Below, piece after piece: positions 6,770 through 52,710 of a DNA stretch of 52,827 bases. A program made the position numbers and the translations under genes. Below the pieces are notes generated by a model. The model did not search any database. It had not been told where the DNA came from and saw nothing but the letters and a program-made list of their open reading frames with translations. Source of the stretch: a virus. The DNA lies in the IMG/VR virus record IMGVR_UViG_3300027852_000046, positions 1 through 52,827 of that record. One strand, 5' to 3'. Numbering within the stretch: the stretch's first letter is position 1; each line of letters opens with the position of its first letter.

Positions 6770-6958
6770 GCTGGAACTCCAGCCGTTATCTTTAGAGCAA
6801 GCCTCGACTCTCTCAAAACGTCGGTCCTTATAGTTCTTGTTTAATGAATCGCTTAATTTATCCATTGCTTCTAACTCGACGTGCATAAGAGCAACCCGCA
6901 TATCTTCATTACTTGCTGTTTTATACCAGTCGTCTTTCATTATTTTTTCTATATTCAT
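6767..6958 (-). CDS. cassette protein MNIEKIM family, copy 1, 63 aa
   Basis: It starts MNIEKIMKDDWYKTASNEDM and is almost identical over about 30 residues to the product of 7637-7957 on the other side of the hub, then diverges (AMDKLSDS against AIDALNNS). GGGAGGCTAGT precedes the ATG. It is the first gene after the leftward promoter. Function is unknown; the mirrored placement suggests that both are made first after infection. Confidence 0.7.
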   Translation of the reverse strand: MNIEKIMKDDWYKTASNEDMRVALMHVELEAMDKLSDSLNKNYKDRRFERVEACSKDNGWSSS

Positions 6959-6969
6959 ACTAGCCTCCC

Positions 6970-7003
6970 AGCTAACAAGTTTTTCAACATGATCTCATTG
7001 TAA
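6970..7003 (+). repeat. attC-like half site 13 at the leftward promoter
   Basis: CAGCTAACAAGTTTTTCAAC fits the left half of an attC; no right core follows. The leftward -10 box begins within it. This promoter-proximal half site would be the array entry point. Confidence 0.55.
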
Positions 7004-7559: not shown

Positions 7560-7587
7560 TTGACATACTATTCATCCTTGCTAAGAT
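7560..7587 (+). promoter_or_regulatory. rightward hub promoter (PR-like)
   Basis: TTGACA (7560-7565), a 16-base spacer and TAAGAT (7582-7587). It would transcribe the 7637 cassette, the RNA cassette and the recombination block. Confidence 0.7.
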
Positions 7588-7603: not shown

Positions 7604-7626
7604 AAGATTGAAAGACTTGTTAGCTG
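7604..7626 (-). repeat. attC-like half site 14 at the rightward promoter
   Basis: GATTGAAAGACTTGTTAGC is the left half of an attC read on the minus strand. It is followed by GGGAGGC, the ribosome site of the 7637 gene. It mirrors half site 13. Confidence 0.6.
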
Positions 7627-7636
7627 GGAGGCTATT

Positions 7637-7957
7637 ATGAATATAGAAAAAATAATGAAAGACGACTGGTACAAAACAGCAAGCAATGAAGATATGCGGG
7701 TTGCTCTTATGCACGTCGAGCTAGAAGCGATTGACGCATTAAATAACTCGTCAAATCAAAACTATAAGGATAGGCGTAGCGAGCGTGTTGAGGAATGCTC
7801 TAAAGAGATAGGGGCGGATGGGGTTGCTAGCAGGGTTGCTCGAATGAATGAGCAGGCTCAGAGTGAATCTAAAATATTAGCAGGTGTGATAATGACAGAC
7901 TATAGCGCCGCAGAAATGAACAGTGATATTGTCGTGACTAAGACCGACAACACATAA
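7637..7957 (+). CDS. cassette protein MNIEKIM family, copy 2, 106 aa
   Basis: The N-terminal 30 residues are nearly the same as in 6767-6958; the C-terminus is longer (EIGADGVASRVARMNEQ to VVTKTDNT). GGGAGGCTATT precedes the ATG. It is the first gene after the rightward promoter, and its stop overlaps the core of site 15. Function is unknown. Confidence 0.7.
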   Translation: MNIEKIMKDDWYKTASNEDMRVALMHVELEAIDALNNSSNQNYKDRRSERVEECSKEIGADGVASRVARMNEQAQSESKILAGVIMTDYSAAEMNSDIVVTKTDNT

Positions 7958-8036
7958 CGCATTAATTCAGTGGCGGCATGACCAACCTAAAACAAGGCGC
8001 AAACAGTGAGCCGTCCACTGCAATGCCTTGTTATGT
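7952..8036 (-). repeat. attC-like site 15
   Basis: Read on the minus strand: CATAACAAGGCATTGCAGTGG on the left and CCACTGAATTAATGCGTTATG on the right, with CAGTGG/CCACTG pairing and a longer loop. It separates the 7637 gene from the RNA cassette. Confidence 0.82.
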
Positions 8037-8055
8037 TGCGGAGGAAAGCAGAATA

Positions 8056-8235
8056 CTTAAAGCGTGGGCTACCATGTGAACCCTGAGCAGGTAGCATCTG
8101 TCCCAGAAAGGTGGGGATGTAAGCCCCACCACCTATTCTCGCCTGATGAGCGTTAGGCGAAACCGCTAGCAGTAGCGGTAGCGCGGAGTGGGCACAGCTG
8201 GGGAATAACTGTCCACCAGGGGTTCACGCTTTAAG
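8056..8235 (+). ncRNA. structured RNA cassette with hammerhead-type core
   Basis: There is no coding frame between sites 15 and 16. A closing helix pairs CTTAAAGCG (8056-8064) with CGCTTTAAG (8227-8235). GCTACC (8068-8073) pairs with GGTAGC (8090-8095), and the loop GTGAACCC (8076-8083) pairs with GGGGTTCAC (8219-8227), a pseudoknot. Further hairpins are 8110-8130 (GGTGGGG/CCCCACC) and 8188-8216. CTGATGA (8143-8149), GAAA (8159-8162), a 7-bp stem III (8162-8168 with 8173-8179) and A8180 fit every conserved hammerhead position; stem II is short (two pairs) and stem I is 8140-8142 with 8181-8183 and beyond. CGCCT/AGGCG (8140-8158) is an alternative fold. I do not recognise a named RNA family. 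Confidence 0.7.
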
Positions 8236-8246
8236 TGTTTTGAGCA

Positions 8247-8375
8247 ATATAACGCTTTAGTTGTACAGCCTGCGGGAATTAAACAAAGGAGCTATAAAAA
8301 TGCAAGAAGATACGCGAACCAATGAAACTGAAAGCGGCACGGAAGTAGCAGGTCAGGACGAACGACTTGTTATAC
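8247..8375 (-). repeat. attC-like site 16, leader-encoding (MQE type)
   Basis: On the plus strand it runs from ATATAACGCTTTAG to GACTTGTTATACG. The centre carries AAAGGAGC and the leader start at 8300. It follows the RNA cassette, so the core here borders RNA, not a stop codon. Confidence 0.85.
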
Positions 8376-8395
8376 GAATTAGGGCGACAACATGA
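8300..8395 (+). CDS. attC-encoded leader peptide, 31 aa
   Basis: It begins MQEDTRTNETESGTEVAG, passes through QDERLVI at the attC core and ends RIRATT. AAAGGAGCTATAAAA precedes the ATG. The stop overlaps the start of the methyltransferase-like gene (ATGA at 8392-8395), so it would act by translational coupling. In three related sites the same leader is fused in frame to the cassette protein. Confidence 0.65.
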   Translation: MQEDTRTNETESGTEVAGQDERLVIRIRATT

Positions 8396-12285: not shown

Positions 12286-12552
12286 ATGAAATACAGAAGA
12301 CCAAAGGTGACTGAAGGCCAGATAAAAATGCAAAGAGGACGTATAGATGGAGAAACTGATATGTGCATTTTTTTTGGTGACGACGTTCCGCGATGTGACA
12401 GAGCACTAGTTATGAGTGCGATTTGCTCAGAAAGGCAATACACCGACTTTTCTACAATGAAGCCTCGTTTTGATCCATCGCTAATAGATGAGCTTGAGAA
12501 CAGAGGTTATGACATTGACACGTTACGATTTTCTATTGATCGAAAAATATAA
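12286..12552 (+). CDS. cassette protein, 88 aa, unknown
   Basis: It begins MKYRRPKVTEGQIKMQRGR and contains CIFFGDDVPRCDRALVMSA. TTGGAGGTTGAGA precedes the ATG. The stop codon overlaps TAACGC of site 19. Function is unknown. Confidence 0.65.
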   Translation: MKYRRPKVTEGQIKMQRGRIDGETDMCIFFGDDVPRCDRALVMSAICSERQYTDFSTMKPRFDPSLIDELENRGYDIDTLRFSIDRKI

Positions 12553-12629
12553 CGCTCTAGCTAACCAGTGAGGAGCGAAATGAGCAAAGCGAATGAAGAG
12601 ACGAGTCAGGTTGGGCGCCTTGTTATACG
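12548..12629 (-). repeat. attC-like site 19, leader-encoding (MSK type)
   Basis: On the plus strand: ATATAACGCTCTAGCTAACC to GCCTTGTTATACG, with GAGGAGCGAA and an ATG at 12580. It is almost the same as site 6 on the other arm, though it precedes a different gene. Confidence 0.85.
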
Positions 12630-20752: not shown

Positions 20753-20950
20753 ATGACAGAAGTTGAAGCAGTTGAAAAACACAAAGAGCTATATGACCGT
20801 GCCGGAGCTGTTGGCCTGACACTAAAAACCAACGGCGAGTGGTTTGAATTTAATATTAAGCAAGCTAATGGCTTGATTTCAAAAAAGACACTGGCTGAAA
20901 TTGAAGTTTTTATTTGCGGCTATGAGCTTGGATACCATGCAGGTTTATAA
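20753..20950 (+). CDS. cassette protein, 65 aa, unknown
   Basis: It starts MTEVEAVEKHKELYDRAGAV and ends FICGYELGYHAGL. It is probably a small soluble protein. CCGGAGTTTAAAGA precedes the ATG. The stop overlaps the core of site 23. Confidence 0.65.
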   Translation: MTEVEAVEKHKELYDRAGAVGLTLKTNGEWFEFNIKQANGLISKKTLAEIEVFICGYELGYHAGL

Positions 20951-21006
20951 CGCCCGTTAATAAGCCGTGAGCGTAGCGAGTCGGCTTAATAAACTTTGTT
21001 ATATTT
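20945..21006 (-). repeat. attC-like site 23
   Basis: On the plus strand: TTTATAACGCCCGTTAATAAG to TTAATAAACTTTGTTATAT, with AAGCCGTGAGCGTAGCGAGTCGGCTT as the stem-loop (given here as AAGCCG..CGGCTT pairing). Confidence 0.88.
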
Positions 21007-21025: not shown

Positions 21026-21358
21026 ATGAAAGATTGGATTAAAAGAAAACTAGGAATTACAGCTCTTGAAAAAGAAAACGAAATGTTACGAATTGCCCTG
21101 AAAAATCATCGTAAATTTGTACAAAACAAGGTTTCAGAGCTGAAAGATTATACCCGTGTTGATGCTGATGTGGGGGCTAGGGGAAATAACACAATAGTGC
21201 TAACAGGCGTGTATAAAAAAAATGCATTTGTAAGGTTTTATGACATTGGTGACGGTCAATTTGAACAGCTTGTAAACCAAATGAGGAGCATGAAAGACCA
21301 TTGCTTAATTAGAAATATAGATATGCCTCCACAGTTCAAAGGCATGTTTGAAATATAA
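21026..21358 (+). CDS. cassette protein, 110 aa, unknown
   Basis: An N-terminal helix (LEKENEMLRIALKNHRKFVQ) is followed by a beta-rich half (NNTIVLTGVYKKNAFVRFYD). The form resembles a phage-borne protein with a coiled-coil head. The stop is in the core of site 24. Function is unknown. Confidence 0.65.
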   Translation: MKDWIKRKLGITALEKENEMLRIALKNHRKFVQNKVSELKDYTRVDADVGARGNNTIVLTGVYKKNAFVRFYDIGDGQFEQLVNQMRSMKDHCLIRNIDMPPQFKGMFEI

Positions 21359-21480
21359 CGCTTTAGTTGTACAGCCTGCGGGAATTAACAAAGGAGCTAT
21401 AAAAATGCAAGAAGGTACGCGAACCAAAGAAACTGAAAACGGCACGGAGTTAGCAGGTCAGGACGAACGACTTGTTATAT
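21353..21480 (-). repeat. attC-like site 24, leader-encoding (MQE type)
   Basis: On the plus strand: ATATAACGCTTTAGTTGTAC to GAACGACTTGTTATAT, with AAAGGAGC and an ATG at 21405. It is closely similar to site 16. Confidence 0.85.
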
Positions 21481-22157: not shown

Positions 22158-22218
22158 TATAACGCCCGTTAATAAGCAGCCGAGTTTACGAGGTCGGCTT
22201 GATAAACCTTGTTATAGC
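22155..22218 (-). repeat. attC-like site 26
   Basis: On the plus strand: AATATAACGCCCGTTAATAAG to GATAAACCTTGTTATAG. It has an AGCCGAG..CTCGGCT-like stem. Confidence 0.85.
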
Positions 22219-52379: not shown

Positions 52380-52658
52380 TGTTTGCTTACAGCTTCTCAA
52401 TAATTCATATAAACCATTCAAAGCGGATAATGCTATAGGGTCGCTTTTGTCGTGCATCATTAACGTATTAATCGCATTTGCATAAAACGCAGCATTGTCG
52501 CCTCGTATAAAAATTCCTGCCCAATCATCACCAAACTGAATTGAACCAGTTTCTACGCGATGTTTATTTTCAGGTATTGGCAACATAACAAGTCGTTCGT
52601 CCTGACCTGCTACCTCTGTGGCTTTTTCAGTTTCTTTGGTTCGCTTATCTTCTTGCAT
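52377..52658 (-). CDS. cassette protein with attC-encoded leader, 93 aa
   Basis: The ATG and AAAGGAGC are inside site 27, and the first 25 residues are the leader (MQEDKRTKETE..AGQDERLVM). The body starts LPIPENKHRVETGSIQFGDD and ends LYELLRSCKQT; it includes GIFIRGDNAAFYANAINTL. Function is unknown. In the circular form it is the next gene after 520-813 on the minus strand. Confidence 0.7.
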   Translation of the reverse strand: MQEDKRTKETEKATEVAGQDERLVMLPIPENKHRVETGSIQFGDDWAGIFIRGDNAAFYANAINTLMMHDKSDPIALSALNGLYELLRSCKQT

Positions 52659-52710
52659 TTTTATAGCTCCTTTGTTAGTTCCCGCAGGCTGTACAACTAG
52701 AGCGTTATGC
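52583..52710 (+). repeat. attC-like site 27, leader-encoding (MQE type)
   Basis: From ACATAACAAGTCGTTCG to CTAGAGCGTTATGC. It is very similar to site 2. In the circular form it takes the place of site 1 (443-524) in front of the same cassette. Confidence 0.85.

Follow-up and report, generated by a model that had tools for sequence, protein, structure and literature searches.

A structured RNA between two phage genes

The window analysed here is a stretch of 52,827 bases from the virus of IMG/VR record IMGVR_UViG_3300027852_000046, in which a Pfam scan of ten ORFs identified an SU10-type portal gene and one protein has its best matches in Vibrio phages. No tRNA genes were found in the 52,827-base window. 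At positions 8056-8235 lies an RNA unit, situated between an ORF at 7637-7957 and an ORF at 8392, all on one strand. An earlier note on this DNA had described the unit as lacking a reading frame, and we indeed found no ORF of at least 60 aa and no convincing short ORF within it. A good sigma-70-like promoter (TTGACA-16-TAAGAT) is located at 7560-7587 (+), upstream of the ORF at 7637-7957, which the RNA follows on the same strand. Sigma-70-like sites are no more numerous in the window than in shuffled background.

Both flanks of the RNA carry attC-like sites. The 5′ site is an inverted repeat at 7952-8036 (+; ACATAAC/GTTATGT) with paired inner arms, and the 3′ site at 8248-8375 (+) is one of four copies of a 126-bp repeat, the others lying at 740-864, 21352-21479 and 52585-52708 (90-95% identical). 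These two sites are well paired, while a relaxed scan of the whole window for attC-like sites was near background (26 sites versus 15-25 after shuffling), and the attC-site count of the earlier note was not confirmed. Families of attC-like and other intergenic repeats (60-126 bp, ~84-95% identical) are dispersed across the whole phage genome in both orientations, with further examples beyond the first 8 kb at 12550-12626, 20948-21006 and 22160-22215. In addition, two 200-bp segments at 6789-6987 and 7608-7806 are ~85% alike in opposite orientation, as seen through an identical contig (L026), and are possibly a duplicated cassette.

The RNA element, a pseudoknotted shell with an embedded hammerhead module, occupies 8056-8235 on the + strand, as do all of the parts described below. 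A family model places it at 8054-8236 with a cmsearch score of 59.4 bits, the window sequence itself being part of that model's alignment, and the minimum free energy of 8045-8245 corresponds to z = -6.6. A base-by-base check agreed with every helix and core base previously stated for this RNA. The proposed 9-bp closing helix, P1, is formed by nine perfect pairs between 8056-8064 and 8227-8235. A conserved [N]CGUGGG lies at 8062-8068; in 94 of 100 family members (73/76 with a hammerhead, 21/24 without) it begins with the same base as [N]CGYGGAG, which starts just past the predicted cut. Hairpin P2 spans 8068-8095 (8068-8073/8090-8095; 99.2% of cells paired, five of six pairs changed on both sides). 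Its loop, 8076-8083, pairs with 8220-8227 to form the pseudoknot PK, in which 8/8 pairs are present here, 77.8% of cells are paired in relatives and double changes occur in 8/8 columns. The stretch 8100-8106 holds the 5′ strands of a 2-bp helix (8100-8101/8194-8195) and of P3 (8102-8106/8198-8202; 98.9% of cells paired), with pair 8101-8194 covarying between G-C and U-A (35 and 8 sequences). Helix P4, within 8188-8216 (8188-8193/8211-8216; 98.1% of cells paired, double changes in 4/6 pairs), is interlocked with P3. The pseudoknot of the earlier note is thus present, but there are two rather than one: PK and the P3/P4 interlock. The strand GAAUAAC at 8203-8209 is nearly invariant in an alignment of 44 shells, and G8066-C8209 is an isolated tertiary pair that covaries between G-C and U-A (37 and 7 sequences; alignment columns 13 and 85). 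An extra hairpin at 8110-8130 (GGTGGGG/CCCCACC, 7/7 pairs) occurs in this copy and in its close relative L018.

The earlier claim of a complete hammerhead core also held. Stem I pairs 8140-8142 with 8181-8183 (C8142-G8181, G8141-C8182 and C8140-G8183), one pair fewer than in most relatives. It is followed by the core CUGAUGA (C3-A9) at 8143-8149, a 2-bp stem-loop II at 8150-8158 (G8150-C8158, C8151-G8157), the core GAAA (G12 A13 A14 A15.1) at 8159-8162, and a 7-bp stem-loop III at 8162-8179 (8162-8168/8173-8179) that includes A15.1-U16.1. Cleavage is predicted between A8180 (H17) and G8181, and the predicted new 5′ end, [N]CGCGGAG at 8181-8188, is an imperfect direct repeat of 8062-8068. The layout is that of a type I hammerhead, with stem I open and stems II and III closed by loops. 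A descriptor requiring the core and stems I, II and III of at least 3, 2 and 5 bp matched once in the window, at this core, versus four times in 300 dinucleotide-shuffled windows (0.013 expected per shuffled window). The Rfam hammerhead score of this copy is 19.8 bits against a threshold of 56.3 bits, a gathering threshold being a detection limit and not a ribozyme trait.

A phage RNA family with an optional hammerhead

Weak blastn matches led to relatives in an Enterobacter phage, the mycobacteriophages Gaia and phiGD24-3, and an Aquitalea plasmid, all four of which share a downstream motif, GGAGU-N-CYGGGGAAUAAC, and carry a hammerhead core at the same place. Pattern scans of IMG/VR yielded at least 119 distinct family members, with further named carriers in Arthrobacter phages Karkharias and Constance and Microcystis phage Mwe-JY26. 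A hammerhead-pattern scan of genome contigs gave mostly coding-sequence false positives, and strict filters left one weak match in 665 cellular genomes, which is only suggestive of the RNA being rare there.

The fold of the shell was evaluated in the alignment of 44 shells, with the hammerhead removed and the pseudoknotted structure counted. Across ~110 nt, 92.8% of cells are paired, compared to 71.0% after shuffling and at most 51.5% with slid partners, and 21 of 29 pairs show changes on both sides. None of 500 shuffles reached the paired fraction or the covariation score of the shell; the sequences are related, so that shuffles overstate significance, while the slid control preserves relatedness and falls far short. 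At the level of sequence comparison, the P3/P4 interlock, the loop-to-3′-end pseudoknot and the isolated G-C/U-A pair are all supported by strong covariation. The shell matches no family in Rfam 15 at gathering and E-value thresholds; the family is absent from that release, and an earlier description may exist, the literature covered being open-access only. A match to skipping-rope RNA was seen at 3589-3683 (-) of L075, ~150 nt downstream of a family member, but this sub-threshold match (28.5 bits versus 36.7) is outside the element, and skipping-rope was rejected as the shell's family.

Comparative folding of the homologues, proposed earlier as a check on the hammerhead, shows that the core and all three stems are kept through compensatory change. 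The type I core test (C3 U4 G5 A6 N7 G8 A9, G12 A13 A14) agrees with the window and with 87/87 parsed relatives, the members with a large insert, all of which read CUGANGA...GAAA with U16.1; the core parser favoured CTGA/GAAA, so that only the base at H17, the stem pairing and the scarcity of exceptions are fairly bias-free observations. H17 is C in 60, A in 22 and U in 5 of these cores, and never G. Across the 87 relatives, 96, 89 and 98% of cells in stems I, II (inner part) and III are paired, versus 79, 46 and 64% in shuffled sequences. Position 10.1/11.1 is G-C in 46, A-A in 28 and U-U in 9 members, and U-U mismatches at this position occur in natural hammerheads (PMC3088659). Three departures from the core are known: phage Gaia has a U3-A8 combination, L023 carries an extra base behind A6, and the copy in L028 is decayed. 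Covariation of U3/A8 has been described in natural hammerheads that are active in vitro, whereas the A6a insertion gives low activity (PMC3088659). A covariance search against Rfam likewise returned hammerhead families as the best matches of several members, at scores below the thresholds (for example, Hammerhead_1 for L014 at 28.7 bits versus 34, and HH9 for L300 and L005) and with the shell unmatched.

The hammerhead occupies one fixed site in the shell, the P3/P4 junction. It is absent from 24 of the at least 119 members, and four other shells carry unrelated short inserts at the same site. The shell of a Microcystis phage at 2944-3055 of L442 has no hammerhead. The earlier note held that homologues keeping the other helices and losing the core would speak against a ribozyme, and formally these 24 shells are of that kind; the module is missing from them in its entirety, not through the loss of individual core bases, which marks it as optional rather than spurious. 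Because 24 of about 119 members do without it, the module is not essential to the shell. Its presence and absence are scattered on the shell tree, where supported branches require at least 6 to 8 state changes and many forks are unresolved. Judged from its sequence, the hammerhead is a genuine, selected and optional module of a phage RNA family.

The family also moves between genomic settings. L018, an unrelated phage, carries a copy that is 88% identical over 8059-8229 only, and since the flanks do not match those of the window, the RNA moves as its own unit. The earlier description of the RNA as moved in a cassette is therefore accurate for its travel as a unit, here between attC-like repeats, and not for its nature, as the relatives examined reside in tRNA arrays or at other intergenic sites; cassettes are one vehicle of this RNA. 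Among 34 members with any tRNA at the locus, 32 have a tRNA within 500 nt, all on the same strand, compared to 10% of random positions at all loci. Large tRNA arrays are present at L044, L062, L095 and L097, and several hammerhead-less copies lie within long arrays.

In Enterobacter phage SDFMU_EhYP, E. coli prophages and Pectobacterium phage Pappous the order is circularly permuted, with the hammerhead and the 3′ half of the shell preceding the 5′ half. These copies keep the pairing partners, which covary when Pappous is compared with the rest. Of 5426 E. coli genomes, 15 carry a permuted copy; the one examined (L448, at 3930-4560, in strain CFSAN061763) is located in a lambdoid prophage, with the Q gene on one side and the holin gene on the other, immediately past the position annotated as pR′ and tR′ in phage HK75. 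There the RNA fills the interior of a hairpin, AAGAGCATTG/CAGTGCTCTT, inside which strain C41(DE3) has another sequence. In Pappous (L450) the permuted RNA at 2535-2651 is annotated as a 38-aa hypothetical protein, and a tRNA-Met begins 6 nt after the match.

A proposed self-nicked RNA and competing explanations

Our analysis makes it probable, from sequence comparison, that the element is a double-pseudoknot phage noncoding RNA with an optional type I hammerhead at its P3/P4 junction, and that self-cleavage gives a nicked, assembled RNA. In this mechanism, the ribozyme would cut its own transcript at 8180/8181 and leave a 5′-OH at G8181. The two halves would remain paired through the closing helix, the pseudoknot between the P2 loop and the 3′ end, and P3, yielding one nicked assembly instead of two transcripts. 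In the permuted form, where the hammerhead precedes both halves of the shell, this cut would produce the same [N]CGYGGAGU 5′ end, suggesting that the ribozyme serves to create this end or to open the chain at the junction. A role in trans during the expression of phage genes is probable for the RNA, which may often be made together with phage tRNAs. A broader reading, about which we are slightly doubtful, is that the shell represents a new class of functional phage RNA used as a self-nicked two-piece molecule, in which circular permutation moved the chain ends next to the same junction and the module was repeatedly gained or lost as phages transferred the RNA among tRNA arrays, lambdoid late leaders and cassette arrays.

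The window copy is the weakest case within the family. The earlier note had counted its short stem II and a rival CGCCT/AGGCG hairpin as points against activity, and both stand: stem II has 2 bp, stem I is also short at 3 bp, and in a nearest-neighbour model the rival 9-bp hairpin, UCGCCUGAU/GUUAGGCGA, is favoured over the hammerhead fold by 10.1 kcal/mol, which is tied worst of the 87 members (family median 0.6). Activity of this copy is accordingly less sure than that of the family. It is conceivable, if unlikely, that the family hammerhead is real and that this copy is inactive or held off, with the rival hairpin forming first in transcription and burying the core, either through decay or as a switch released by a binder of the shell. 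The same clade is affected more widely, with the rival fold better by 5.1 kcal/mol in L018 and 6.7 in L060 and stem I limited to 3 bp in both, and the 5′ strand of stem I has a second possible partner in the identical [N]CGU copy at the 5′ end of the shell. In hammerhead-bearing members this strand could pair with either [N]CG copy, an arrangement that might work as a switch; in hammerhead-less shells a search for a partner strand to account for the repeated [N]CG found none. However, this copy has its core, the 7-bp stem III and H17 intact, and core bases are the usual targets of decay. Folding programs also disregard hammerhead tertiary contacts, and in 66 of 87 members no more than 3 kcal/mol separates the active fold from the minimum free energy.

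The earlier note proposed that cleavage separates cassette transcripts. More generally, the ribozyme may divide polycistronic phage or cassette transcripts into individual messages, a role that has been proposed for gene-flanking hammerheads of prophages. Such a role accords with prophage hammerheads that flank genes and are active on ~2-kb transcripts (PMC3088659), with the position of the window RNA between two ORFs on one strand, and with the lambdoid form near the start of the late operon. The predicted cut is nevertheless in the middle of a conserved fold, where three helices hold the halves together and the closing helix would oppose their separation; the same internal site is found in cassette-free phages, and the shell persists in members that lack the module. 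Separation of transcripts is possible but fits this internal cut poorly, and we regard it as improbable. Still harder to credit is a chance or relic motif in an RNA whose shell alone matters. The shells without a hammerhead or with unrelated inserts would suit that idea, but 87 intact cores in one register, with no G at H17 and compensatory changes in all three stems, argue against it.

The family bears on a wider problem. Bacterial hammerheads are known but their role is not, and this family offers natural versions with the module, without it and permuted, through which the role can be tested. The shell itself defines a widespread, strongly covarying group of phage RNAs that is new relative to Rfam 15, and the permuted copies in E. 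coli prophages bring standard laboratory genetics within reach.

Relation to known ribozymes and mobile elements

The module shares with type I hammerheads (Rfam RF00163; RAGATH-1, RF03152; HH9, RF02275) all core positions, three covarying stems, A15.1-U16.1 and an H17 that is not G. It differs from them in being optional inside a conserved pseudoknotted RNA whose shell encloses the short stem I, in often having A-A or U-U at 10.1/11.1, and in scoring below the Rfam thresholds. The prophage hammerheads of Perreault et al. 2011 (PMC3088659), such as that of phage PaP3, are likewise intergenic in phages and include core variants such as U3-A8, but many are described as flanking genes, unlike the shell-embedded family. 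PaP3 was considered as a relative of the shell and set aside, as it gave no match to the shell model and its likely core lies outside any shell.

The topology of HDV is a nested double pseudoknot of P1, P2, P3 and P1.1. The helix order of the shell (P2, PK, P2′, P3, P4, P3′, P4′, PK′) differs from this, which led us to reject an HDV or theta identity. The HDV-like theta ribozymes of gut phages are also self-cleaving RNAs beside phage tRNA genes (PMC10879173), cleavage being predicted in our family. Theta ribozymes cleave within 5 nt of a tRNA, with a proposed role in tRNA 3′ processing (PMC10879173), whereas the spacing to tRNAs varies in the present family and the predicted cut is internal. 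Finally, integron cassettes and CALINs in phages (PMC9892861) resemble the window in having attC-like sites around short units of a phage genome, but the unit enclosed here is an RNA whose examined relatives are found outside cassettes.
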